Positions 3,147-34,426 of a stretch of DNA of 64,000 bases are shown here, piece by piece. Made by a program: the position numbers and the translations under genes. The DNA comes from Nocardioides coralli (GTDB taxonomy: Bacteria > Actinomycetota > Actinomycetes > Propionibacteriales > Nocardioidaceae). The notes under the pieces were generated by a model. That model worked only from the letters and a program-made list of their open reading frames with translations, was not told the DNA's origin and searched no databases. Numbering within the stretch: the stretch's first letter is position 1; each line of letters opens with the position of its first letter. The stretch lies in the NCBI RefSeq assembly GCF_019880385.1, contig NZ_CP082273.1, positions 1,116,001 to 1,180,000 on the forward strand, given 5' to 3'.

Positions 3147-4412
3147 GTGCGCCTGCGCTCACGCTCCCGCACCCCCCGACCCCCGCGCCCCCGGCGGGCG
3201 AGCCTGCTGCTGGCCCTGGCGGCGCCGGTGCTGGCCGCGTGCGCGGCACCGGCCGCGACCACCGCCGACACCGACCGGCCGTGGTCGGCGATCGCGGAGG
3301 AGGCTCGAGGGCAGACGGTCTCGCTGTGGATGTGGGGCGGCGACCCCCAGGGCAACGCCTACGTCGACGACGTCCTCGCCCCCGCTGCTGCGGAGCTCGG
3401 TGTGACGCTGCGCCGCGTGCCGGTCGCGGACACCGGTGACGCGGTGAACCGGGTGCTGGCCGAGCGCCAGGCCGGCCGGACCGACGGTGACGTGGACCTG
3501 GTGTGGGTCAACGGCGACAACTTCCGCACCGGTCGGCAGGCCGACGCCTGGTTGTGCGGGTGGACCGACGCCCTCCCCAACCTGGCCCTGACCGATCCCG
3601 AGGACCCGCTCCTGCTCTCCGACTTCGGGGTCCCGGTCGACGGGTGCGAGGCCCCGTGGCACAAGGCGCAGTTCACGCTCGTCTACGACGCCAGCCGGGT
3701 GCCGGACCCGCCGACGACCCTCGAGGGAGTGCTCCAGTGGGCCGAGGACAACCCCGGCCGCTTCACCTACCCGGCGCCGCCGGACTTCACCGGCTCGGTC
3801 TTCGTGCGTCAGGTCCTCTACAGCGTCGCCGGCGGGCCCGGACAGGTGCCGGCGACCTACGACCAGGCCGCCTACGACGAGCTCGCGCCGCAGCTGTGGC
3901 AGCGGTTGCGTGACCTGGCGCCCTCCCTGTGGCGCGGTGGCGCCACCTACCCGCGCGACGTCGCCGCCCTCGACCGCCTCTTCGCCCAGGGCCAGGTCGA
4001 CATGACCATGACCTATGGCCCGGCAACGCTCACCGAGCTGGTGGAGCAGGGCACCTTCCCCCCGAGCACCCGCGTGCTCACCCTCGAGGAGGGCACCGTC
4101 GGCAACGCGAGCTTCCTCGCGATCCCCGCCACCACCGCTGACAGTGCTGGGGCGATGGTCGTGGCCGACCTGGCGCTCTCCCCGGAGCAGCAGGCGGCCA
4201 AGGCCGACCCGGCGACGTGGGGTCAGTTCACGGTGCTCGACCTGGAGCGGCTGTCGCCGCCGGAGCGACGGCGCTTCGCGGAGCTGCCGGAGTCAGCGGT
4301 GGTCCCGCCCTACGCCGAGCTGTCGCGGGGCGCCGACCCCGAGCTGGCCGCCGACTGGGTGGGTCCGCTCGACGATGGCTGGCGGCGCGACGTCCTGGCC
4401 GCGACCCGGTGA
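3147..4412 (+). CDS. ABC transporter substrate-binding lipoprotein, YnjB-like
   Basis: 421 residues. A basic N-terminus, a hydrophobic stretch and a lipobox ending in LAAC (cysteine near residue 31) mark it as a lipoprotein. The mature part has WMWGGDPQGNAYVDD and DLVWVNGDNF blocks that closely resemble the YnjB family, binding components of importers of unknown substrate distantly related to Fe/thiamine/spermidine binders. The GTG start is set by AGGAGG four bases before it and gives a complete signal peptide. It is the first gene of a four-gene importer with overlapping stops and starts. The 149 bases upstream show no riboswitch. Confidence 0.85.
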   Translation: MRLRSRSRTPRPPRPRRASLLLALAAPVLAACAAPAATTADTDRPWSAIAEEARGQTVSLWMWGGDPQGNAYVDDVLAPAAAELGVTLRRVPVADTGDAVNRVLAERQAGRTDGDVDLVWVNGDNFRTGRQADAWLCGWTDALPNLALTDPEDPLLLSDFGVPVDGCEAPWHKAQFTLVYDASRVPDPPTTLEGVLQWAEDNPGRFTYPAPPDFTGSVFVRQVLYSVAGGPGQVPATYDQAAYDELAPQLWQRLRDLAPSLWRGGATYPRDVAALDRLFAQGQVDMTMTYGPATLTELVEQGTFPPSTRVLTLEEGTVGNASFLAIPATTADSAGAMVVADLALSPEQQAAKADPATWGQFTVLDLERLSPPERRRFAELPESAVVPPYAELSRGADPELAADWVGPLDDGWRRDVLAATR

Positions 4413-5278
4413 GCGTCGGGACGGCAGCGGCCCATGACCGCGGCGACCGGTTCCGCGGGATCCTGGCGGTCGGCCCCGCCGTGCTCGTGGTCGTGCTGGT
4501 CGTGGGCACCGGCCTGGTCACGGTGGTGCTGCAGAGCGCGGGGCTGATGCCGCTGGTGGGGCAGCCGCGCCTCTCGGGGGCGGCGTACGCCGGTGCGGCG
4601 GACGAGCTGCTCGACGCCACGGTGCTGTCGCTCGTCATCGCCGGCGCGTCGACGCTGGTGGCTGCCGGCGTCGGCCTGGGCGCAGCGATCCTCCTGGTCG
4701 CCTCCCCGCGTGGTCGCCGGCTGCTGGCCGCGATCGGGAGCGCACCGATCCCGGTCCCGCACCTCGTGGGTGCGGCGTCGGTCGGGCTGCTGCTCATGGA
4801 CGGCGGTCTGCTCGCCCGGTGGCTGGGCATCGCCCCCGACGCGTGGCCGGCCCTGGTCGCGGGTCACTGGCCGACCGCCGTGGTCGTGGAGTACGCCTGG
4901 AAGGAGTCCGCGTTCGTGGCGCTGGTGGTCACGGCGGCGCTGGCCACCCGGATCGCCGGCTACCACGACACCGCGGCCGTCCTCGGCGCCGACCGGTGGG
5001 CGCGGTTCCGGCACGTGACCCTGCCGCTGGCAACACCGGCCCTCGTCGCCGCGTCCGCGATCACGTTCGTCTACACGCTCGGGTCCTACGAGGTCGCCTG
5101 GCTGCTGGGGCCGGTCTACCCCGAGCCGCTGCCGGTGATGGCCTACCGGGTCTTCACCTCGACCGACCTCTCGGCCCGCCCGGAGGCGATGGCGGTCGCT
5201 GCGGTCACGACGACGCTGTCGTTGGCGTCGGTGCTGGTCGCCCTGGCGTGGCTGCGCCGGACGGCGGTGTGGCGATGA
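4409..5278 (+). CDS. ABC transporter permease, YnjC N-terminal-half-like
   Basis: 289 residues with about six membrane segments and a BPD-type permease core. A coupling region with ATRIAGYHDTAAVLGADRW, followed by a conserved glycine/leucine-rich segment, matches the EAA loop that docks onto the ATPase. The GTG start overlaps the stop of the binding-protein gene (GTGA), and its own stop overlaps the next permease (ATGA). In enterobacterial ynjC the two permease modules are one polypeptide; here each module is a separate gene. Confidence 0.85.
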   Translation: MSVGTAAAHDRGDRFRGILAVGPAVLVVVLVVGTGLVTVVLQSAGLMPLVGQPRLSGAAYAGAADELLDATVLSLVIAGASTLVAAGVGLGAAILLVASPRGRRLLAAIGSAPIPVPHLVGAASVGLLLMDGGLLARWLGIAPDAWPALVAGHWPTAVVVEYAWKESAFVALVVTAALATRIAGYHDTAAVLGADRWARFRHVTLPLATPALVAASAITFVYTLGSYEVAWLLGPVYPEPLPVMAYRVFTSTDLSARPEAMAVAAVTTTLSLASVLVALAWLRRTAVWR

Positions 5279-6060
5279 GTGGGATCCGTGTGCTGCGTGC
5301 CGGGGCGGGAATGGCGCTGACGGTGTGGTTCCTGCTGCCGCTGGTGCCGCTGCTGCTGTGGGCCGTCGCCGACACCTGGGACGCGCCGGCGCGGCTGCCT
5401 CAGGACTGGGGCGGGCGGGGGCTGGAGCTCGCGCTCGCCGAGGGAGGGGTGGCCGCCTCCGGCCGTTCGGTCCTGCTGGGCCTGGTCGTGGCCGGTATCG
5501 CGACCCCGCTCGGGGCGGCCGCCGCCCGGGCGCTCGCCCTGCGCACGGCGCCGCTGCCGCGGCTGGTCTCCGTCCTGCTCTTCCTCCCCGTCGCCCTGCC
5601 GCTCTTCGCCGTCGTGCTGGGCATCGACGTCACGCTGCTGCGGTTGCGCGTCCCCGGGCTGGTCGGCATCGTGCTGGTCCTCGTCGTGGTCGCGCTGCCC
5701 TACACGACCTACCTGATGCGGGTCGCCTACGGCGCCTACGACTCCGCCTTCGAGGACGAGGCGCGCACCCTGGGGGCGGCGCCCCGGGCCGTGCGCTGGC
5801 GGGTACGCCGGCCACTGCTGGCGCCCGGGCTGGCCGGGGCGGCCTTCCTCGCCTTCCTCGTCGGCTGGAGCGACTACCTGGTCACGTTGCTCGTCGGCGG
5901 CGGGCGCCTGGTCACCCTGCCGCTGCTGGTCGCCGCGACCGCGTCCGGCACCGGCAACGAGCCGACGGTGGCCGTCCTGTCCCTGGCAGCGGTGCTGCCG
6001 CCCGTGCTCGTGCTGGTCGGCGTGGGGCTCCTGCGCCGCCGCGTAGGAGGAGTGAGATGA
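5275..6060 (+). CDS. ABC transporter permease, YnjC C-terminal-half-like
   Basis: 261 residues with about six membrane segments. The cytoplasmic EAA loop is clear (FEDEARTLGAAPRAVRWRV), followed by the final two helices. The ATG overlaps the preceding TGA, and the stop overlaps the ATPase start, so all four transporter genes appear translationally coupled. Together with the previous gene it would form a heterodimeric membrane channel in place of the single fused YnjC chain. Confidence 0.85.
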   Translation: MSGIRVLRAGAGMALTVWFLLPLVPLLLWAVADTWDAPARLPQDWGGRGLELALAEGGVAASGRSVLLGLVVAGIATPLGAAAARALALRTAPLPRLVSVLLFLPVALPLFAVVLGIDVTLLRLRVPGLVGIVLVLVVVALPYTTYLMRVAYGAYDSAFEDEARTLGAAPRAVRWRVRRPLLAPGLAGAAFLAFLVGWSDYLVTLLVGGGRLVTLPLLVAATASGTGNEPTVAVLSLAAVLPPVLVLVGVGLLRRRVGGVR

Positions 6061-7181
6061 GCGCCGAGCTGTCCCTGCACGCCATCACCCGGGACCACGG
6101 TGACGGCTCGCCGCCCGCGCTCTGCGAGGTCGACCTCACCGTGGGGGCCGGGGCCTGCGCCGCGGTGGTGGGCCCCTCCGGCTCGGGCAAGTCGACGGTG
6201 CTGCGGATCGCCAGCGGGCTGGACCGCCCCGATGCCGGTGACGTGCTGCTCGACGGCCGCAGCGTGCTGGCGGTGCCGGCGGAGCGGCGCCAGGTCGCGC
6301 TGATGCTGCAGCGGCCGTTGCTCTTCCCCCACCTGAGCGTGCTCGACAACGTGGCGTTCCCGGCCCGGGTCGCCGGGGCCTCGCGTCGGGAGGCCCGACG
6401 CGGCGCCGCTGACTACCTCGACCTGGTGCGGCTCGACGGCTACGGCCGGCGCCGGGCCGGTGAGCTGTCCGGCGGGCAGGAGCAGCGGGTGGCCCTGGCA
6501 CGGGCACTCGCCGCCCGGCCCCGGGTGCTGCTGCTCGACGAGCCCTTCAGCGCCCTGGACGTCGCCCTCCGTGCGGAGATGCACGACCTGCTGCGCCACG
6601 TCCGCTCGGTGCTGGAGCCCACCATCGTGCTGGTCACCCACGACCCCGGCGAGGCCGCAGCGCTCGCGGACACGGTGGCGGTCCTCGACGGTGGGCGGGT
6701 CGAGCAGCACGCCGGGGTCGACCTGCTCTACCGCCGGCCGGCGTCCCTGACCGTGGCCCGGATCATGGGCGGCCGGAACGAGGTGCCCGGCGAGGTCCGC
6801 GGAGGGGCCCACCACTCGGTGCTCGGTCGGGTCGCGCTGCCGCCCGACGTGCGCCCGCCGGAGGGAGCCGGGGTGCTCGTGGTGCGCCACGAGTCCGTCG
6901 ACCTGGTGGCGCCGGAGCCGGGCCTCGTCACCGGCCGGGTTGCGGCCACGACGCCGTCAGGCGCCCGCACCCTCGTCGCTGTCGAGGTGTCGGGCCCGGA
7001 CCGGCCCGACCTCCGGCTCCACACGGAGGTACCGCCCGGTCACCCCGTGCGACCGGGCGACCTGGTCGGGCTGCGCATCCCCATCCAGGCCGTGGCGGTC
7101 GTCCCGACCGGGCGCCCCGCGCAGCCGCCGGTCGACGACGCGGAGTCCGGCGGAGTGGTCCTGGCCGGGGAGTCCGGGTGA
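6057..7181 (+). CDS. ABC transporter ATP-binding protein, YnjD-like
   Basis: 374 residues. Walker A (GPSGSGKST), a Q-loop (LMLQRPLLFPH), the ABC signature (LSGGQEQR), Walker B with catalytic Glu (LLLDEPFSALD) and the H-loop (VTHD) are all intact. After about residue 235 there is an extra C-terminal region with a TOBE-like beta fold, as in importer ATPases of the CysA/PotA group. It is longer than E. coli YnjD, which lacks this extension. It should energise the upstream importer; the substrate remains unknown. Confidence 0.88.
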   Translation: MSAELSLHAITRDHGDGSPPALCEVDLTVGAGACAAVVGPSGSGKSTVLRIASGLDRPDAGDVLLDGRSVLAVPAERRQVALMLQRPLLFPHLSVLDNVAFPARVAGASRREARRGAADYLDLVRLDGYGRRRAGELSGGQEQRVALARALAARPRVLLLDEPFSALDVALRAEMHDLLRHVRSVLEPTIVLVTHDPGEAAALADTVAVLDGGRVEQHAGVDLLYRRPASLTVARIMGGRNEVPGEVRGGAHHSVLGRVALPPDVRPPEGAGVLVVRHESVDLVAPEPGLVTGRVAATTPSGARTLVAVEVSGPDRPDLRLHTEVPPGHPVRPGDLVGLRIPIQAVAVVPTGRPAQPPVDDAESGGVVLAGESG

Positions 7182-7214: not shown

Positions 7215-8294
7215 TCAGGGCCGGGGTCGCAGCTCGTCGCGGTGGGAGGCGACGTCGTCCACGATCGTCGTGATGTTGAGCAGGGTCGTGATCAGCGCGC
7301 CGTAGACCGGCCAGTGCCGGCTGGGCAGCTCCTCGCCGGACAGGTCGCGGGTGAGGCGGTCGAGGTCGGGTCGGACCTGCTCCACCTCGGCGTACGGGTC
7401 GGCGACCCGGCGTCCCACGCGACGCAGCAGGTCGGTCCACCGGTCGCGGAACCCGTCGTCCCAGGCGCGGGCCTCGACCACGGACTCGTCGACCACGCGC
7501 GCGATCGCCCGCGCCTGGGCGACACCCTCCTCGAGGCGGATGAGCAGCTCGGTCTCCTGGTCCACGTCGGCCGTACGGCGGGACCGGCGGCGACGCACGT
7601 TGGCCCACTGGCTCTCCTGGGTGAAGCTCAGGTGCTCCTGCGCACGATCGAGGCGGGCGTCGATGTCCCGCGTCTCCTCGACCCACGCCTGGGTGCCCTC
7701 CCGCGCCATGTCGTGACGCAGCTCGGCCGCCATCCGTTCCAGCAGCCTCCCCAGGTCGAGCACCGCCCGATCCAGGGCGCGCTCGGCGATCCGGTCGTCG
7801 AGCGGGGGCAGCAGCAGCACGTTGACCACGACGCCGACGCCGACACCGATCAGGGTGTCGAGGAACCGGTCGAGCAGGAGGGCCTCCTGGGTGCCGGCGC
7901 CGGAGGTGATGACGAACAGCGCCGTGGTGGCCACCGCGATGCCCTCCTCCTTGATGAGCGGCGTCCGGGCGAGCAGCAGCCCCACCAGCACCGCCGCGCC
8001 GAGGCTGGCCGCGCCGAAGCCCAGGGCCGCCGTGGCCAGGTAGGAGAGGACAATCCCGAGCAGCGTCGCCACCACCGACTGGGCGCCGCGCCAGAACGTG
8101 CGGTAGACGGTGGCGTGGATGGTGAGCAGGGCGGCCCACGCGGCGAGGAAACCCTGCTCCAGCCCGAGCACCCGGACGGCCAGCAGCCAGGCCACGACAG
8201 TCGCGACCACCGCCTTGACCACCTGGAGCAGGTCCGTCTGGACCTCGGGCCGACGCAAGCCGGAGCGGGCTCGGCGCCACCATCGCGACACCAT
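7215..8294 (-). CDS. FUSC / aromatic acid exporter family membrane protein
   Basis: 359 residues. The N-terminal 170 or so contain about six closely packed membrane helices, including VVKAVVATVVAWLLA and the conserved FWRGAQSVVATLLG segment. The remainder is a soluble, charged, helical domain. This is the half-module layout of the fusaric-acid-resistance/YgaH-like exporters, known or predicted to remove aromatic carboxylates. The ATG at 8294 is preferred over a GTG at 8297 because AGGGGG lies four bases upstream and because a seven-codon ORF ends in TGATG exactly here. It is convergent with the ABC importer. Confidence 0.75.
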   Translation of the reverse strand: MVSRWWRRARSGLRRPEVQTDLLQVVKAVVATVVAWLLAVRVLGLEQGFLAAWAALLTIHATVYRTFWRGAQSVVATLLGIVLSYLATAALGFGAASLGAAVLVGLLLARTPLIKEEGIAVATTALFVITSGAGTQEALLLDRFLDTLIGVGVGVVVNVLLLPPLDDRIAERALDRAVLDLGRLLERMAAELRHDMAREGTQAWVEETRDIDARLDRAQEHLSFTQESQWANVRRRRSRRTADVDQETELLIRLEEGVAQARAIARVVDESVVEARAWDDGFRDRWTDLLRRVGRRVADPYAEVEQVRPDLDRLTRDLSGEELPSRHWPVYGALITTLLNITTIVDDVASHRDELRPRP

Positions 8295-8317
8295 CACACC
8301 CCCTGCGGCCGCGTCAT
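8294..8317 (-). promoter_or_regulatory. Possible leaderless seven-codon leader ORF coupled to the exporter
   Basis: A TAGGCT -10 box (8330-8325) is followed after 7 nt by an ATG that opens a reading frame of seven codons (MTRPQGV). Its TGA shares a base with the exporter ATG. Translation of the short frame could feed ribosomes onto the exporter. It may equally be just a 5' leader with a Shine-Dalgarno sequence. Confidence 0.3.
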
Positions 8318-8339: not shown

Positions 8340-9122
8340 TCAGCCGGCCAGCGACCCCGCGAAGATCTGCCAGGCGAGCGCCGACTTCGCGACCAGGCTG
8401 AGGACCAGGTAAGCCCGCTCGCCGAAGGCGTAGCTGCGCCAGGGCCCGACCTCCCGGTACTGCAGCCACTGGTTGACGGCGAAGCTCGAGAACAGGACGA
8501 ACAGCGAGGCGAAGATGCCGTACACGAAGCCCGGCACCGTCTCGGCGCTCAGGATGTTGTAGCCGATCGCGACCCAGGGCGCCGCGCCCGCGACGCAGCC
8601 GAACCAGAAGGCCTTCATGGTGGTGGCGGCCCGGCCGGGCGGGTTCGCGGCCTCCTGCAACCAGCCGAAGAGGATCATCCCGACGTTGGCGCCGGCGATG
8701 CCGATGACCGCGGAGAACCCCGTGATGCCGGTGTAGAAGGCAATCAGCACGACCATCAGGGTCGCGCTGACGGAGTACTCCACCCACCGGAACCGGTTGA
8801 TGCCCGCCCGCAGCCCGGTCTCGTAGCGGTCGCGGAGGACGGTCGCGGTGAGCCCGTGGTCGAGCGCGGCGAGGGCGAGGAAGACGGCGATCGCCCCGCC
8901 GATCGGGACGTCGAAGAAGGCCTCGGGTGCCTCCGGAGGGGTGCCCGGAGGCCCCGTGGGCAGGGACGTGGTGACGGTGATCGCGAAGTCGCTGGCCAGC
9001 ACGAGGACCACCACCGCCTGCGCTGCGTGCAACACGGTGAGCCCCAGGTTCCACCGCCGCAGGGAGCGCAGGCTGCGGTGGTCCACCCCGGAGGCGGTGG
9101 CCATGGCTGAGGGCGTGGTCAT
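8340..9122 (-). CDS. Heliorhodopsin (retinal-binding photoreceptor-type membrane protein)
   Basis: 260 residues with seven predicted membrane helices (roughly 24-44, 74-95, 110-130, 135-155, 170-192, 198-220, 235-257). Helix 7 has VAKSALAWQIF, placing a lysine at residue 246 where heliorhodopsins bind retinal. Helix 3 has RWVEYSVSAT with Glu115 at the Schiff-base counterion position, in place of the DTD/DTE-type motifs of pump rhodopsins. His32 and His89 sit where heliorhodopsins have conserved helix 1 and 2 histidines. Length matches the family (about 250). The ATG at 9122 has GGAG just upstream. It is divergent from the CmtR-like gene; its function is unknown, possibly light sensing or enzyme regulation. 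No retinal-synthesis gene is in the window. Confidence 0.93.
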   Translation of the reverse strand: MTTPSAMATASGVDHRSLRSLRRWNLGLTVLHAAQAVVVLVLASDFAITVTTSLPTGPPGTPPEAPEAFFDVPIGGAIAVFLALAALDHGLTATVLRDRYETGLRAGINRFRWVEYSVSATLMVVLIAFYTGITGFSAVIGIAGANVGMILFGWLQEAANPPGRAATTMKAFWFGCVAGAAPWVAIGYNILSAETVPGFVYGIFASLFVLFSSFAVNQWLQYREVGPWRSYAFGERAYLVLSLVAKSALAWQIFAGSLAG

Positions 9123-9159: not shown

Positions 9160-9165
9160 ACAGTA
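9160..9165 (-). promoter_or_regulatory. Candidate -10 box (TACTGT) for the heliorhodopsin gene
   Basis: On the minus strand TACTGT lies 37 bases before the heliorhodopsin ATG. The -35 region of such a promoter would fall within the repeated element at 9174-9199. No good -35 hexamer is visible, so support is weak. Confidence 0.25.
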
Positions 9166-9171
9166 CAGCCC

Positions 9172-9200
9172 TTGCTGGATACATTGCTTGCTGAATACAG
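9172..9200 (+). promoter_or_regulatory. Promoter with a GCTGRATACA direct repeat, possible CmtR-like operator
   Basis: GCTGGATACA (9174-9183) and GCTGAATACA (9190-9199) are direct repeats with a 16-base period. They coincide with a plausible promoter: -35 TTGCTG at 9172 and -10 ATACAG at 9195, with a 17-base spacer. Their position between the divergent heliorhodopsin and metal-sensor genes suggests an operator. Binding is inferred. Confidence 0.4.
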
Positions 9201-9222
9201 CCTCGGGTGTCACGATGGGGAC

Positions 9223-9567
9223 ATGACCACGCGCGCCGTCGACACCTTGGAGGCCCTGGCCCGCTTCGGCCACGCGCTGTCCGACCCCACGCGGGCCCGC
9301 ATCCTCGTGGGGCTGCGCGAGGCGCCGGCCTACCCCGCCGAGCTGTCGGAGCGCCTGGGGGTCTCGCGACAGTCGGTGTCCAACCACCTCGCGTGCCTGC
9401 GCGGCTGCGGCCTGGTGGTGGCGGTCCCGGAGGGCCGACGCGTCCGCTACGAGCTGGTGGACGGACGGCTCCGGCACGCCCTGGGCGACCTCGAGGCCCT
9501 CGTGCTCGAGGTCGACCCTGCGCTGTGCAGCACCGCCGAGGCCGACGCGACGGGGGTTCCGGCATGA
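9223..9567 (+). CDS. cmtR: ArsR/SmtB-family metal sensor, CmtR-like (Cd/Pb type)
   Basis: 114 residues forming a winged helix (LSDPTRARILVGL, then a recognition helix with SRQSVSNHL). Cys58 and Cys62 in the CLRGCGLVV block and Cys102 in the tail match in spacing the three cysteine ligands (57, 61, 102) of mycobacterial CmtR, which senses cadmium and lead. The protein should repress its own operon and release DNA when metal binds. The next gene, a CDF-type transporter, overlaps by four bases (ATGA) and is the obvious target. Control of the divergent heliorhodopsin from the same intergenic region is an inference. Confidence 0.85.
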   Translation: MTTRAVDTLEALARFGHALSDPTRARILVGLREAPAYPAELSERLGVSRQSVSNHLACLRGCGLVVAVPEGRRVRYELVDGRLRHALGDLEALVLEVDPALCSTAEADATGVPA

Positions 9568-10280
9568 CGACGGGGACCCGTTCCGGTGCCCATCCCGTGA
9601 TCGGGGTCGAGCGGCGCGCCCGTCTCGCGAACCGGGTGCGGCTGCTGGTGCTGCTGACCATCGGCTACAACCTCCTCGAGGCGACCGTCGCGCTCACGGC
9701 CGGAGCGCTGGCAGGGTCTGCGGCACTGATCGGCTTCGGCCTCGACTCGGTGATCGAGGTGTCCTCGGCGGTCGCGGTGCTCTGGCAGTTCTCCCGGCCC
9801 GACCACGAGGTCCGGGAGCGCGCCACGTTGCGGGTCATCGCGGGGTCGTTCCTGGCGTTGGCGGTCTTCATCTCCTACGACGCGGTGGACGCCCTCGTCC
9901 GGCAGGAGCAGCCAGACCCCTCCACGATCGGCATCGCCGTCGCTGCGCTGAGCCTGCTGGTCATGCCTGCCCTGTCCCGCCTCCAGAGGCGCACCGGGTG
10001 GGAGCTCGGTTCCCACTCGGCAGTCGCCGACTCCAGGCAGACCCTGCTGTGCGCCTGCATGTCGGCGGTGCTGCTCGTCGGGTTGCTGGCCAACGCCTGG
10101 CTCGGCTGGTGGTGGGCCGACCCGGTCGCCGCCCTCGGCATCGCGGGGCTGGCCGTACGTGAGGGGTTCAACGCCTGGCGCGGCGACGCCTGCTGCACCG
10201 TGGGCGGTCTGCGTGACGCGCACGCCGTGGACCCCGCTGACCAGCAGGACGTGCGCAGCCCGGGGGACACGTGCTGCTGA
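9564..10280 (+). CDS. Cation diffusion facilitator-like transporter with Cys-containing tail
   Basis: 238 residues with about five or six hydrophobic segments. GFGLDSVIEVSSA in the second helix supplies the membrane aspartate and SHSAVADSRQT in the fifth supplies His/Asp residues, as in CDF-type metal exporters. The usual cytoplasmic C-terminal domain is absent. Instead a short tail has CC near residue 210 and ends in TCC, which may be a metal-binding site. Co-translated with the CmtR-like sensor, it probably exports a soft or borderline divalent metal; cadmium, lead and zinc are the best guesses. Confidence 0.75.
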   Translation: MTTGTRSGAHPVIGVERRARLANRVRLLVLLTIGYNLLEATVALTAGALAGSAALIGFGLDSVIEVSSAVAVLWQFSRPDHEVRERATLRVIAGSFLALAVFISYDAVDALVRQEQPDPSTIGIAVAALSLLVMPALSRLQRRTGWELGSHSAVADSRQTLLCACMSAVLLVGLLANAWLGWWWADPVAALGIAGLAVREGFNAWRGDACCTVGGLRDAHAVDPADQQDVRSPGDTCC

Positions 10281-10315: not shown

Positions 10316-10334
10316 AGTGGGGGAGGCTCGGGAC

Positions 10335-13029
<2,695 letters not shown>

Positions 13030-14465: not shown

Positions 14466-16022
14466 TCAGCCGCTCCGGGTGGTCCGGAAGGTGACGGCGT
14501 ACCGACGGTCGTCGTCGCGGGACCGGCCGCCACAGGAGTAGCCGGTGACGTACTTGCCGCGGCAGTCGAACCGGGTCGAGGTGTTGGCGACGACGACCCA
14601 CACCCGCGAGGTCTGCCGGCGGTTGAAGGGCACGGTCACGACGCCGTCGCCGTTGCCGTCCAGCGCCACGCTCGTCCGCCGGAGGGCGCCCGAGGCGGTA
14701 CGTCGCACGACCGTGGCCCGCGGCCCCGTCTTCCGGGCCGGCCCGTCGACCCGCACCCGCAGCTGCCACCGCCGGTCGTCGAGCGTCCGGGCCGGGCGGA
14801 CCCGGAACACGTAGCCGGCCAGGTGCCGGACCCGGAAGCCCTGGTCGGACTCGACGCCCTGGTTGCGGCCCAGGCTGCCGTCGTAGGCCAGCCGTGGGCT
14901 CGGCCAGTGCTTGCCCTCGGGGTAGGAGCGGGCGGGCACGACGTTGGCGGCGAGGAACCCGAGGTAGGTGCGGGCGAAGGGCGCGGAGCGGGGGAGCGCT
15001 GCTTCCAGGGCCCTCGTGGACCAGGCCCGGCCGTCACCGGGACCGTTCCCGGCCTCGCGCCAGACCTTCCGGACGAAGCCGGTGCCGAACCGCTGCGTGA
15101 GGTGCTCGACGAACGCCCAGTTGCCGTACTGACTGGTCCCGCTCCGGTCGAAGTAGTCCAGCGGGATGTCGGGCCGGGCGACCTGTCCCTGCGGGAGGTA
15201 GCGGCGGTTGTCGTTGACGGCGTCGGCGAAGCGCTCCTCCATCCACGTCGCCGTCGCCTCCATCAGCCACGGGTCCTCGAGGTAGTCGTAGGCGAACTGG
15301 ACGGCGTGGAAGAACTCGTGGGCCGCGGTCACCCGGAGGCTGTGGACGGGCTTGGCTGCGTACTGCGAGCGGGCGAAGTCGTTGTCCAGGACGCAGTAGC
15401 CGGACGCGAGTCGCCGGTTGCCCGGCTTGGTGAGCTCGGGGGCGCAGTAGCCGAAGAGCCCCTGGTCGCCCACGTCGGCCAGGTAGACGTCGAACTTGGC
15501 GTTGCCACCCCGGCGGCCGTCGCGGAGCGGACGCCGGTAGCCCATCTTGCCCACCTGCTGCGACCACACCCGGTCGACCGTCGTCAGCGTGCGCCGTGCC
15601 CAGGCGGCGGTGGCCCGGTCACGCGTCCGCTTCACCCGGTGCACGCAGATCCGGCCGTTGCACGTCTTGACCGATCGCGCGCGGTAGCCGTCGCCGTACG
15701 GGTCCTGGGCGCCCTCCGTGGGGCGTGCCAGCATGCGCTCGGCCCGCCTGCGCTCGGCGCCCTCGAGCTGGGGGAGCGACCGGAACAGGTCGCGGAGCGC
15801 GATGGTGGCCTCGGGCTGGTCGTGCCCCACATGACCCGCCGGCGGATCGCCGTCGGCGTCACCCGCGAGGGCCTCCTCCGCCAGCGCCAGCGCCCGCTCC
15901 GCCTCGCCCGCAACCCCCTCAGGTGCGCGGGACGCCCGGTCGTCGGCGTACCCCACGGCAGGGCCGAGAGGGGCCGACAGGAGGGCGACGACGGCGACGA
16001 GGGCGGCGGCGGTGCGGCGCAT
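14466..16022 (-). CDS. Secreted zinc metalloprotease-like protein (HEFFH motif)
   Basis: 518 residues. The start at 16022 has GGAG before it and opens a signal peptide (basic, then a hydrophobic core to about residue 25). A zinc-protease HExxH motif appears as TAAHEFFHAVQF, followed about 20 residues on by EATATWMEE, whose Glu could be the third ligand, as in MXAN_6640-type putative metallopeptidases. Four cysteines before the motif may form disulfides, and the C-terminal 120 residues look like a beta-rich domain. The substrate is unknown. It faces the secreted nuclease-like gene tail to tail. Confidence 0.75.
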   Translation of the reverse strand: MRRTAAALVAVVALLSAPLGPAVGYADDRASRAPEGVAGEAERALALAEEALAGDADGDPPAGHVGHDQPEATIALRDLFRSLPQLEGAERRRAERMLARPTEGAQDPYGDGYRARSVKTCNGRICVHRVKRTRDRATAAWARRTLTTVDRVWSQQVGKMGYRRPLRDGRRGGNAKFDVYLADVGDQGLFGYCAPELTKPGNRRLASGYCVLDNDFARSQYAAKPVHSLRVTAAHEFFHAVQFAYDYLEDPWLMEATATWMEERFADAVNDNRRYLPQGQVARPDIPLDYFDRSGTSQYGNWAFVEHLTQRFGTGFVRKVWREAGNGPGDGRAWSTRALEAALPRSAPFARTYLGFLAANVVPARSYPEGKHWPSPRLAYDGSLGRNQGVESDQGFRVRHLAGYVFRVRPARTLDDRRWQLRVRVDGPARKTGPRATVVRRTASGALRRTSVALDGNGDGVVTVPFNRRQTSRVWVVVANTSTRFDCRGKYVTGYSCGGRSRDDDRRYAVTFRTTRSG

Positions 16023-25275: not shown

Positions 25276-25905
25276 ATGACCGACGAGACCAGCGTCGACG
25301 AGATCGACGTCGCCACCGAGTCCGACGAGGACCGAGCCGCACGCTTCGAGCGTGACGCGCTGCCCTTCCTCGACCAGCTGTACGCCGCGGCGATGCGGAT
25401 GACCCGCAACCCTGCCGACGCCGAGGACCTCGTGCAGGAGACCTTCGCCAAGGCCTTCTCCTCCTTCAAGCAGTTCAAGCCGGGGACCAACCTGAAGGCG
25501 TGGCTCTACCGCATCCTCACCAACACCTTCATCAACAGCTACCGCAAGAAGCAGCGGCAGCCGCAGCAGTCGATGACGGAGGACGTCGAGGACTGGCAGC
25601 TCGCCCGCGCCGAGTCCCACACCTCCTCGGGACTGAAGTCGGCCGAGACCGAGGCGCTGGAGCGGCTGCCGGACTCCCAGGTCAAGGACGCGCTCCAGCA
25701 GCTCCCCGAGGAGTTCCGGCTCGCGGTCTACCTCGCCGACGTCGAGGGGTTCGCCTACAAGGAGATCGCCGAGATCATGGAGACCCCCATCGGGACCGTG
25801 ATGTCCCGGCTGCACCGCGGGCGCCGGCAGCTGCGGGACCTGCTCGCCGACCATGTCCGGGCCCACGACCTGCTGCCCATCGGTCCCGAAGGAGGCGACG
25901 CGTGA
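25276..25905 (+). CDS. sigR: ECF sigma factor SigR/SigH type (thiol-oxidative stress)
   Basis: 209 residues. Region 2 ([19 protein letters not shown], then [20 protein letters not shown]) and region 4 ([24 protein letters not shown]) match the SigR/SigH group. This factor directs the response to disulfide stress and heat. It is followed, with a four-base overlap, by its RsrA-type anti-sigma gene. Upstream in-frame starts (ATG 25240, GTG 25228) lie downstream of the sigmaR-type promoter, so a form extended by 12 or more residues could be made from that transcript, as known for sigmaR' in Streptomyces. Confidence 0.92.
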
Positions 25906-26174
25906 GCCACCACCACGACCACACCGCGGACCAGTGCGCCGACTACCTCGAGCGCATCGTCTACTTCCTCGACAACGAGCTAGATGCCGCCGACTGCGCG
26001 GTCGTGCAGCGGCACCTCGACGAGTGCGGTCCGTGCCTGGAGAAGTTCGACCTGCAGCGCACCGTCAAGTCGGTCGTCGCACGCTCGTGCTCCTCCGAGC
26101 ACGCCCCCGAGGAGCTGCGGGCCCGCGTGCTCGTGCAGATCCGCCAGGTCCAGGTGCGGATCACCGACGTCTGA
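25902..26174 (+). CDS. rsrA: Zinc-binding redox anti-sigma factor RsrA
   Basis: 90 residues. Cys12, His38, Cys42 and Cys45 (HLDECGPC) match the zinc ligands of Streptomyces RsrA (Cys11, His37, Cys41, Cys44), and Cys62 follows. Oxidation forms a disulfide, expels zinc and releases the sigma factor. The N-terminus has an extra HHHDH cluster that may also bind metal. It is coupled to sigR through a GTGA overlap. The order fits the SigH-RshA locus of mycobacteria. Confidence 0.92.
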
Positions 26175-29882: not shown

Positions 29883-31349
29883 GTGCCGTCGTTGACCGAG
29901 CTCGTGCGCAGCCACACCGACCTCGACCACGAGGACGTGGCCTGGCTGCAGCTCATCCAGGCGGACTGGCAGATCGTGGCCGACCTGTCCTTCGCCGACC
30001 TGGTGCTGTGGTTGCCCGACCGTGAAGGACGTGGATTCTGGGCGGGTAGCCAGATGCGACCGACGACCGGGCCCACCGCCCTCGTGGACGACGTGGTGGG
30101 CCGTTTCGTGCCCCGCGGGCGGCGGCCCATGCTCGACGAGGCCTACGAGCGGGGGCGGGTGGTCCGCGAGGGGGACCCGGAGTGGCGCGACCACGTCCCG
30201 GTCCGTGTGGAGACCATCCCCGTGCGGCGCAGCGGTCGCGTGATCGCCGTCATCGCGCGCAACACCAACCTGCTCGGCGTACGCACCCCGAGTCGTCTGG
30301 AGCTCTCCTACCTGCAGACCGCCGCCGACCTGAGCCAGATGATCGCAGCCGGCGAGTTCCCCGCCCCCGGCCAGCGCAGCGACCACGCCGACTCCCCGCG
30401 GGTGGGCGACGGCTTCGTGCGCATCGACGTCCACGGGCGGGTCACCTACGCCAGCCCCAACGCGCTGTCGGTGTTCCGACGGTTGGGCCTCTCCGGGGAC
30501 CTGGAGGGGCTGGTGCTCACCGACGTGACCCGCGACCTGGTCCCGGCGCGGCGCCGACCTGACGAGGAGACCGTGTCGGCGGTGCTCGGCGGGCGCGCGC
30601 ACCGTGACACCGAGCTGGGCACCGACGAGGTGGTGCTGATCGTCCGGTCGATCCCGCTGGCCCCGGCCGGGGAGAGGATCGGCGCGCTGGTGCTGGTGCG
30701 CGACGTGACCGACCTGCGGCGGCGCGACCGGGAGCTGGTGACGAAGGACGCCACGATCCGCGAGATCCACCACCGGGTGAAGAACAACCTGCAGACCGTC
30801 GCGGCCCTGCTGCGGCTGCAGGCACGCCGGATCGAGGCGCCGGCGGCGCGGTCGGCGCTGGAGGAGGCGGTGCGCCGGGTGGGCTCGATCGCCATCGTCC
30901 ACGAGACGCTGAGTGCCGCCGCCGACGAACGGGTCGACTTCGACGAGGTGGCCGATCGGCTCGGACGGATGGTGACCGAAGTCAGTGCGTCCGGCGACCG
31001 CGTCCGGGTGGCGCGCTCAGGGTCCTTCGGTGTGCTCGGCTCCGACACGGCGACGGCGCTGGCGATGGTGCTGACCGAGGTGCTGCAGAACGCCGTCGAG
31101 CACGGCTACGGCAGCGACCAGGGAGGCACGATCACGATGCAGGTCGGGATCGTGGCCGGCCGTCTGCAGGTGGCGGTCACCGACGACGGTCGGGGGCTGC
31201 CGGAAGGCTTCGACCTCGACGCCAGCACCAGCCTCGGGCTCTCGATCGTGCGGACGCTCGTGGAGTCCGAGCTCGGCGGCCGGCTCGGTGTCGGCGACGT
31301 GTCGGGTGACGGTGGGACGCGCGTGACGCTGGACCTGCCGCGACCCTGA
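29883..31349 (+). CDS. pdtaS: Sensor histidine kinase PdtaS
   Basis: 488 residues. A GAF-like domain (about 1-150) and a PAS domain (about 175-285) precede a HisKA_2 dimerisation domain with the phosphoacceptor motif EIHHRVKNNLQT. The ATPase domain has LTEVLQNAVEHGY (N box), DDGRGLP (G1) and GLGLSIV-like (here SLGLSIV). It is cytosolic, with no membrane segment. In mycobacteria PdtaS phosphorylates the ANTAR regulator PdtaR and sits beside whiB1, as here. No pdtaR is in this window. Confidence 0.92.
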   Translation: MPSLTELVRSHTDLDHEDVAWLQLIQADWQIVADLSFADLVLWLPDREGRGFWAGSQMRPTTGPTALVDDVVGRFVPRGRRPMLDEAYERGRVVREGDPEWRDHVPVRVETIPVRRSGRVIAVIARNTNLLGVRTPSRLELSYLQTAADLSQMIAAGEFPAPGQRSDHADSPRVGDGFVRIDVHGRVTYASPNALSVFRRLGLSGDLEGLVLTDVTRDLVPARRRPDEETVSAVLGGRAHRDTELGTDEVVLIVRSIPLAPAGERIGALVLVRDVTDLRRRDRELVTKDATIREIHHRVKNNLQTVAALLRLQARRIEAPAARSALEEAVRRVGSIAIVHETLSAAADERVDFDEVADRLGRMVTEVSASGDRVRVARSGSFGVLGSDTATALAMVLTEVLQNAVEHGYGSDQGGTITMQVGIVAGRLQVAVTDDGRGLPEGFDLDASTSLGLSIVRTLVESELGGRLGVGDVSGDGGTRVTLDLPRP

Positions 31350-33620: not shown

Positions 33621-34022
33621 TCAGGACTTCTTGGTCTCCCAGAAGATCTCGGCGATCTCGTCGATCTTGGCCAGCAGCTCGTCGGCCTTGCCTGCGTCCA
33701 GCTCGCCCTTGGTGCCGGACGCCCCGGCCAGCTTGGTGGCCTCGTTGAACAGCTGGTGCAGCTGCGGGTACTTCTCGAAGTGCGGGGGCTTGAAGTAGTC
33801 GGTCCACAGCACCCAGAGGTGGTGCTTGACCAGCTCGGACCGCTGCTCCTTGATGACGATGGCGCGGGTACGGAAGTCGGGGTCGTCGTTGTCGGCGACC
33901 TTCTCGATGATGCCCTTGATCGACTCGGCCTCGATGCGTGCCTGCGCCGGGTCGTAGACGCCGCAGGGGAGGTCGCAGTGCGCCGCGACCTCGACGGTGG
34001 GCATGAACAGCTTCGTGAACAC
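33621..34022 (-). CDS. sodN: Nickel superoxide dismutase
   Basis: 133 residues. After a 14-residue leader, the mature protein begins HCDLPCGVY, the nickel hook in which His1, Cys2 and Cys6 bind the metal. Later landmarks are VIKEQR, HHLWVLWTDYFKPPHFEKYP and the C-terminal IFWETKK, as in Streptomyces SodN. The GTG at 34022 gives exactly the known leader length, and GGAG lies 9 bases upstream; longer frames would place extra residues before it. It is divergent from its maturation protease across 59 bases. Confidence 0.96.
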   Translation of the reverse strand: MFTKLFMPTVEVAAHCDLPCGVYDPAQARIEAESIKGIIEKVADNDDPDFRTRAIVIKEQRSELVKHHLWVLWTDYFKPPHFEKYPQLHQLFNEATKLAGASGTKGELDAGKADELLAKIDEIAEIFWETKKS

Positions 34023-34081
34023 GTGGAGTCCACTCCTATCTGCTGGGGTTCGGTCGTCCGTCGACTGCGACACTACTCCGC

Positions 34082-34426
34082 GTGTCACCACCCTTGAAGG
34101 TGAGTCTGATCCCGTTCGGGATCGCTGTCGTGCGCGGCACCTCGATGCTGCCGGGACTCCGTGACGGCGACCGGCTCCTGGTCAGGTACGGCGCCGCGGT
34201 CCGGCCCGGAGCGGTGGTCGTGGGCCGCTTCGCCGACGGGACCCTTGCGGTCAAACGGGCAGCGGAGCAGCGGCCGGCTCGTGACGGCTCCCGCGGCTGG
34301 TGGCTGCTCGGCGACAACCCCGACGGGCTCGACTCGCGGCACCGCGGTCCGGTGCCCGAGACCGACGTCCTCGGTGTCGCGGTCGCGCGCGTGTGGCCCC
34401 GGCCTCGAGGGCTCCGCCCGCGGTGA
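34082..34426 (+). CDS. sodX: Nickel SOD maturation protease SodX (S26-type)
   Basis: 114 residues. A signal peptidase-like fold: VRGTSMLPGLRDGD has the catalytic Ser, and TLAVKRAAE the general-base Lys; LLGDNPDGLDSR is the later conserved box. It removes the SodN leader so that the new N-terminal His can bind nickel. The very short N-terminus may be too weak for a membrane anchor, as in other SodX. The GTG start is close to a TAGTGT-like element that serves sodN in the opposite direction. Confidence 0.9.
   Translation: MSPPLKVSLIPFGIAVVRGTSMLPGLRDGDRLLVRYGAAVRPGAVVVGRFADGTLAVKRAAEQRPARDGSRGWWLLGDNPDGLDSRHRGPVPETDVLGVAVARVWPRPRGLRPR

Follow-up and report, generated by a model that had tools for sequence, protein, structure and literature searches.

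A heliorhodopsin of Nocardioides coralli: family membership, gene neighborhood, and a probable external source of retinal

Nocardioides coralli encodes a single heliorhodopsin (HeR), a real and ordinary member of a known family, in a complete 3.5-Mb genome in which the known carotenoid and retinal genes were not found. We put at about 85% the probability that this protein is an ordinary, intact actinobacterial HeR that acts as a light sensor with scavenged retinal. It would bind environmental retinal at Lys246, absorb near 550 to 556 nm, not pump, and relay a slow, light-driven change of conformation to a partner protein by way of its arginine-rich cytoplasmic loops. Taken by itself, this HeR is one more among thousands (the protein search gave 6,845 matches at E ≤ 1e-3 among 8,000 candidates scored), and its value is that of a clean test case. 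The points of note are a host without a known retinal route and a possible operon of the HeR with a FUSC-type exporter, facing a metal regulator; the argument from an oxidative-stress neighborhood is weak for this HeR.

Family membership, fold, and predicted color

The HeR gene occupies positions 8340 to 9122 of the window (the whole 64,000-nucleotide stretch of DNA that was analyzed) on the minus strand, with an ATG at 9122 and a stop at 8340, and codes for 260 amino acids. The protein matches PF18761 with 330.2 bits (E = 8.6e-99; cut-off, 26.7) and the NCBIfam HeR equivalog NF038020 with 271.2 bits (E = 7.7e-81; cut-off, 100), the two matches spanning residues 21 to 258. Chance is excluded, and the open reading frame is confirmed as a genuine HeR. 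The one-contig genome of 3,527,132 bases has no other HeR match, and the nearest named relatives of this HeR are actinobacterial, in agreement with the original prediction of a heliorhodopsin in an actinobacterial chromosome.

The same prediction, made from the DNA letters and their translation, had named a retinal lysine in helix 7 (Lys246), a counterion in helix 3 (Glu115), two conserved histidines, and seven helices, all of which are borne out by alignment and structure prediction. In the alignment with HeR-48C12, Lys246 pairs with K241, Glu115 with E107, His32 with H23, and His89 with H80, and all four residues are invariant in an alignment of 29 HeR sequences. Arg112 pairs with R104 of 48C12, and the GPPG motif, named for the A-B loop in a published description (PMC9385722), is common to both proteins. 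The AlphaFold2 model, built from the 29-row alignment, has a pLDDT of 87.8 and seven long helices; two strands are predicted in the A-B loop, at residues 47 to 52 and 67 to 73, and they form a beta-hairpin in the model. The likeness to HeR-48C12 (PDB 6su3 and 6uh3) thus covers the same lysine, glutamate, two histidines, and GPPG motif as well as the fold, 6su3 being the best PDB match of the model in a Foldseek search (TM score, 0.88; rmsd, 1.8; 47% identity). Ranks 1 to 10 of that search are all taken by 48C12 and TaHeR structures, with TM scores by query length of 0.85 to 0.88, and type-1 rhodopsins follow far behind.

With segment limits taken from the AlphaFold2 model, lysines and arginines number 2, 4, 2, and 3 (11 in total) in the predicted cytoplasmic N terminus and loops and zero in each of the four predicted outside segments. 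The predicted topology is the inverted one of HeRs, with the N terminus in the cytoplasm, and the charge asymmetry is consistent with it. Of the two outcomes that the original prediction had named as refuting it, misalignment of Lys246 and Glu115 or a topology at odds with HeRs, neither appeared in these predictions.

Positions corresponding to Gln148 and Gln213 of 48C12 mark the HeRs that absorb above 550 nm, Ala240 doing so less clearly (PMC7807009). The HeR of Nocardioides dokdonensis, which absorbs at 555 nm, belongs to this group (PMC7807009). The window HeR carries Q156, Q218, and A245 at the three positions of the alignment, and since its tuning glutamines are those of the green group, its absorption maximum is predicted to lie near 550 to 556 nm.

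The further statement that known heliorhodopsins lack pumping and have no settled role has in part been superseded: one viral HeR is a proton transporter (PMC9448325), and bacterial HeRs are reported to modulate a glutamine synthetase (PMC9529153), a photolyase (PMC9769723), and an ABC exporter (PMC11109279). In AbHeR, the partner-binding surface is reported to consist of intracellular-loop residues with a positive charge (PMC9529153).

Distribution of related heliorhodopsins

Each of the 120 matches listed from the protein search (query included) carries the HeR Pfam domain. Where an organism is named, it is Nocardioides, Intrasporangium, or Phycicoccus, and the identity is approximately 77 to 81%. 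HeR genes were found in 41 of 147 sampled genomes of the same genus and in 50 of 294 genomes of a family sample (E ≤ 1e-30); both samples were drawn from larger groups, and they overlap. Within the genus sample, identities to the window HeR fall into two bands, about 66 to 78% and 50 to 58%. For one HeR of the lower band (G061:C1:2181888-2182616), the search alignment contains a single in-frame TAG. A tree was built from 74 HeRs, namely, the window HeR and 73 of the 80 named loci described below, seven having been dropped with the HeR not called or called short. It places the window HeR in a supported clade of 14 rows, together with 11 HeRs from Nocardioides, one from Pedococcus, and one from an Acidimicrobiales metagenome-assembled genome.

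Gene neighborhood and its recurrence

Downstream of the HeR gene and on the same minus strand lies a gene for a FUSC/ArAE_1-like membrane exporter (aromatic acid exporter family 1; 7215 to 8297; PF06081, 4e-14; PF13515, 1.9e-9). Four genes on the plus strand lie on the other side. They encode a CmtR-like ArsR/SmtB metalloregulator divergent from the HeR (9223 to 9567; NF047906, 130.1 bits; PDB 2jsc, 107.7 bits); a CDF metal transporter that overlaps the ArsR stop (9564 to 10280; PF01545, 1.2e-13; TIGR01297, 61.1 bits, below the cut-off of 82.35); a PerR-like Fur-family regulator (10317 to 10775; PF01475, 2.3e-18; best NCBIfam match PerR at 72.9 bits, below the cut-off of 200); and the catalase-peroxidase KatG (10837 to 13029; TIGR00198, 1112.8 bits).

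The recurrence of these five genes was followed by tblastn, which in this form detects only close homologs of the window's own proteins. Among the named HeR loci (the best 80 of at least 492 confirmed, the 11 shortest of which extend over only 3.6 to 8.9 kb), close homologs of FUSC, ArsR, and CDF were found at none, and Fur-KatG was found beside the HeR at one, L066 (1e-8). None of the five had a close homolog beside any of the 43 other same-genus HeRs, whose flanks reach up to about 9 kb and are shorter at some contig ends. The two locus sets overlap, the 122 loci with a called HeR representing 108 distinct HeR genes; gene calls came from a codon model for which the window's own genes served as the training set, and L033, in which the HeR was not called, was dropped from the neighbor counts.

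HeR neighbors vary between loci. The commonest clusters within five genes of the HeR are SDR oxidoreductases (19 loci), TypA/BipA (17), and FMN oxidoreductases (15), followed by M4-type peptidases and acyl-CoA synthetase-like proteins (12 each); these counts include duplicates, and the clusters were named by scanning one representative or some members against Pfam. Pfam scans of same-strand immediate neighbors within 150 bp covered, after deduplication, 33 downstream and 37 of 38 upstream genes (L137:14-346 was omitted). TerC-family membrane proteins, one representative of which was checked against Pfam, lie within five genes of the HeR in 8 of the 108 distinct loci (L020, L022, L026, L127, L142, L150, L192, and L193, with duplicates L124 and L126; L127 and L192 come from one genome). 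TerC is also one of ten published HeR operon groups (PMC11109279), and metal export next to HeR may recur.

The FUSC exporter as a candidate partner

The FUSC gene starts 42 bp past the HeR stop if the GTG at 8297 is its start codon; the alternative start is 8258, and the codon-bias call prefers the latter. The protein has no NCBIfam match. By analogy with the Ornithinimicrobium HeR and its OmrDE ABC exporter, HeR and FUSC/ArAE might form a single operon in which the light-activated HeR directly modulates the export of aromatic acids. We regard this as unlikely, even though it is the most probable of the alternatives. In its favor, the two genes share a strand, with a short gap if the GTG is used; there are precedents for HeRs that modulate a neighbor in their operon (PMC11109279, PMC9529153); and no terminator-like site was found between 8250 and 10850, a weak point, as only 0.4 would be expected there by chance. 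The ambiguity of the FUSC start counts against it, and so does the comparison with other genomes. Close FUSC homologs are absent at all of the best 80 named loci and all 43 same-genus loci, and in none of the 49 other HeR genomes of the 294-genome family sample is there a FUSC match (E ≤ 1e-50) near the HeR. The closest pair on one contig elsewhere is approximately 47 kb apart (G129; coordinates compared by eye), and the nearest FUSC homolog (75%) stands without a HeR in a genome that lacks any HeR match. Nor does FUSC appear among the ten operon groups (PMC11109279).

The closest published parallel is Ornithinimicrobium cerasi, in which a membrane exporter likewise lies next to the HeR and shares its strand (PMC11109279). 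There, however, a two-gene ABC exporter lies upstream of the HeR, whereas the FUSC/ArAE gene of the window lies downstream and does not recur in the genomes compared. FUSC is the best local candidate for a partner, with low confidence, because its linkage to HeR is seen in no other genome compared.

The window also encodes, at 3147 to 7181, an ABC transporter that comprises a solute-binding protein (NF008633, 463 bits) and an ATPase and whose genes converge on FUSC. It was rejected as a HeR partner: it is on the other strand, beyond FUSC, and of the importer type by virtue of its solute-binding protein, unlike the published exporter, which lies upstream of the HeR (PMC11109279).

The divergent CmtR-like regulator and its likely operator

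The ArsR protein is called CmtR-like only, because it does not reach the NCBIfam CmtR equivalog (NF047906; 130.1 bits against a cut-off of 150). Its best solved relative is the Mycobacterium CmtR (PDB 2jsc), a Cd/Pb sensor whose C57 and C61, which we take to be metal ligands, align with C58 and C62 of the window protein. Apart from the score, it differs from CmtR in that C102 is one residue off the third, C-terminal CmtR cysteine in the alignment, and in that Ala25 occupies the position of the peroxide-sensing Cys24 of BCG CmtR, so that peroxide sensing through a CmtR-type Cys24 was rejected. The CmtR gene is followed by a P-type ATPase gene, and in the window a CDF gene takes that place.

The gap between the divergent HeR and ArsR genes contains, at 9163 to 9212, three overlapping degenerate copies of ATACA-N8-TGTAT in a 16-bp phase, the likely ArsR operator. 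They begin at 9195 (28 bp before ArsR, 2 mismatches), 9179 (44 bp, 1 mismatch), and 9163 (60 bp, 2 mismatches). In six ArsR-CDF loci of relatives (L196 to L201), the main site begins 27 to 33 bp before ArsR, with no mismatches in L196 to L199 (L198 and L199 being identical) and 2 in L200 and L201. At 16 bp further out there is a second site, weaker than the first, with 2 to 3 mismatches; no site of this kind was found upstream of ArsR in a seventh, more distant CDF locus (L202; ArsR, 44%). The window thus has the two positions seen in relatives and a third copy 16 bp further towards the HeR, the middle, HeR-side site being the strongest. Elsewhere in the 64-kb window, one other match has at most 2 mismatches; 0.67 would be expected, and four were reached in 1 of 100 shuffles. 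At the ArsR-CDF loci with wide context (L213 and L214), no HeR is adjacent, although two of the relatives' genomes, G129 and G061, carry one elsewhere. Comparison with the ArsR-CDF loci of relatives has made the case for the operator itself stronger and that for a tie to HeR alone weaker: judging by the site patterns, the array likely belongs first to ArsR-CDF autoregulation, and in the window it is extended on the HeR side. That ArsR may also cover the HeR promoter is a post hoc inference.

Control of the HeR by this regulator, such that heavy metal would switch on the CDF pump together with HeR-FUSC, is distinctly unlikely. The third copy towards the HeR speaks for it, as do the better match of the middle site (1 mismatch against 2 in the main site), the rarity of further matches in the window and the shuffles, and the alignment of C58 and C62 with the CmtR cysteines. 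CmtR itself reportedly binds multiple operator sites cooperatively, to go by the title of Chauhan 2009. However, a two-site array is found at ArsR-CDF loci without an adjacent HeR (wide context in L213 and L214) and so needs no HeR; the pattern was noticed after the window had been inspected, and its three copies are imperfect, overlapping, and not independent; L202 is without the site; and the arrangement stands beside no other HeR among the best 80 of at least 492 named loci and the 43 same-genus loci. A sigma-70 consensus scan found nothing, and nothing would be expected by chance either.

Oxidative-stress genes in the window

Profile matches place KatG, a Fur-family regulator, SigR-RsrA, and a nickel superoxide dismutase in the window, and a published survey describes catalase genes beside some actinobacterial HeRs and an enrichment of redox genes (PMC8612252). 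It nevertheless appears improbable that the HeR, KatG, and the Fur-family regulator make up a photo-oxidative stress module. The genes for KatG and the Fur-family regulator lie 1.2 to 3.9 kb from the HeR start, the survey reports that peroxidase and catalase genes are enriched around HeRs, with three or more cases of catalase in actinobacteria (PMC8612252), and L066 has Fur-KatG upstream of its HeR on the same strand. In the window, however, KatG and Fur are on the strand opposite the HeR, behind ArsR-CDF, and ArsR has Ala25 in place of the peroxide-sensing cysteine. KatG is present in 139 of the 147 genomes of the genus sample (E ≤ 1e-200), and the nearest KatG to a HeR on a shared contig elsewhere is approximately 68 kb away (G063; by eye). 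The original prediction held that a stress-rich neighborhood gives a handle on function. This is not supported by the comparison, in which close homologs of Fur-KatG came within reach of the HeR at 1 of the best 80 of at least 492 named loci and those of the five nearest genes stood beside none of the 43 other same-genus HeRs; the KatG/Fur linkage was accordingly rejected as such a handle. The neighborhood says little about the role of the HeR and is too light for the functional weight it had been given.

Other genes of the window include one for a SigR/SigH-type sigma factor and, after it, one for the mycothiol anti-sigma factor RsrA (25276 to 26174; TIGR02947 and TIGR03988), the products being disulfide-stress regulators. 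Near them, and not close to the HeR, is a sensor kinase gene (29892 to 31349) whose product has a PhyK-like C-terminal region that scores below the PhyK cut-off. The stretch from 33621 to 34426 encodes the nickel superoxide dismutase SodN and, divergent from it, a SodX-like maturation protease that scores under its cut-off, and 14466 to 16022 encodes a putative metalloprotease of the MXAN_6640 family (NF045524, 345 bits).

Source of retinal

The whole-genome search for a Brp/Blh dioxygenase and carotenoid genes, proposed as a check in the original prediction, was negative. The complete genome gave no match to Brp/Blh (PF15461 and TIGR03753), to RPE65-type cleavage enzymes (PF03055), or to phytoene synthase (PF00494). 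Of the 147 genomes of the genus sample, 4 matched PF15461, 28 matched PF03055, and 59 matched PF00494 over its cut-off. Among 14 control genomes, PF15461 was found in none, TIGR03753 in one (below cut-off), PF03055 in two, and PF00494 in seven; these controls are weak for the Blh searches, and the argument for sensitivity depends on the relatives that PF15461, PF03055, and PF00494 did detect. A crtI-based carotenoid pathway was rejected as well: all 14 TIGR02734 matches in the genome are below the cut-off of 238.1, and the genes at the two best places (132.7 and 102.5 bits) encode amine-oxidase-type flavoproteins according to Pfam scans. With no phytoene synthase, Brp/Blh, or RPE65-type enzyme found in a complete genome, retinal probably comes from outside, although in such a host the HeR could also be an apoprotein or a novel retinal enzyme could be at work.

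HeR hosts differ in this respect. Both crtEBIY and blh are present in the host of AbHeR (PMC9529153), and Blh is reported as a HeR gene neighbor (PMC9385722). The TaHeR host is described as being without retinal synthesis, and it has been proposed that the fenestration of TaHeR lets in retinal from outside (PMC9385722). Most Luna-1 actinobacteria have been inferred to be retinal auxotrophs from their lack of blh; many of them bear a HeR, and carotenoid genes are described as widespread in the group (PMC12422013). Compared with Luna-1, the host studied here appears to lack the phytoene synthase step, too. Because Luna-1 auxotrophy and the TaHeR host have already been described, N. coralli is a further case of a retinal-less HeR host and not a new phenomenon.

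Phytoene synthase is present in 23 of the 41 HeR genomes that the genus sample contains, in 8 cases along with a cleavage enzyme (in one, G023, the RPE65-type match is broken). All three markers are missing from 16, of which three (G111, G127, and G140) are less than 90% complete. The pattern of the window's host is repeated in these 16, and with such a host the question whether sensory HeRs run on scavenged retinal becomes directly testable. Phytoene synthase is at the same time commoner in HeR carriers than in the other genomes (23/41 versus 36/106; Fisher p = 0.016, uncorrected for kinship), which speaks against a simple rule that HeRs need no retinal of their own.

That the HeR is a blind relic, its host having lost retinal synthesis and left the opsin unused, would agree with the failure to find the known pathway in a complete genome. 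It is nonetheless a doubtful proposition: the HeR reading frame is uninterrupted and has retained all four key residues, the 16 marker-less genomes show that such HeRs persist, and the TaHeR host offers a precedent for proposed entry of exogenous retinal (PMC9385722). A light sensor with scavenged retinal remains the preferred reading.

A light- and metal-tuned exporter is possible, though unproven, and least probable of all is a full metal- and light-gated export module, in which the CmtR-like repressor, on a tandem operator extended towards the HeR, would control both the CDF pump and a HeR-FUSC operon, and the HeR, charged with retinal from neighboring cells, would switch the aromatic-acid exporter by light in a cell without known carotenoids. 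In relatives, FUSC (L186 and L188) and ArsR-CDF (L213 and L214) lie near what are presumably phenylacetate-degradation genes, to judge from the starts of the encoded proteins.
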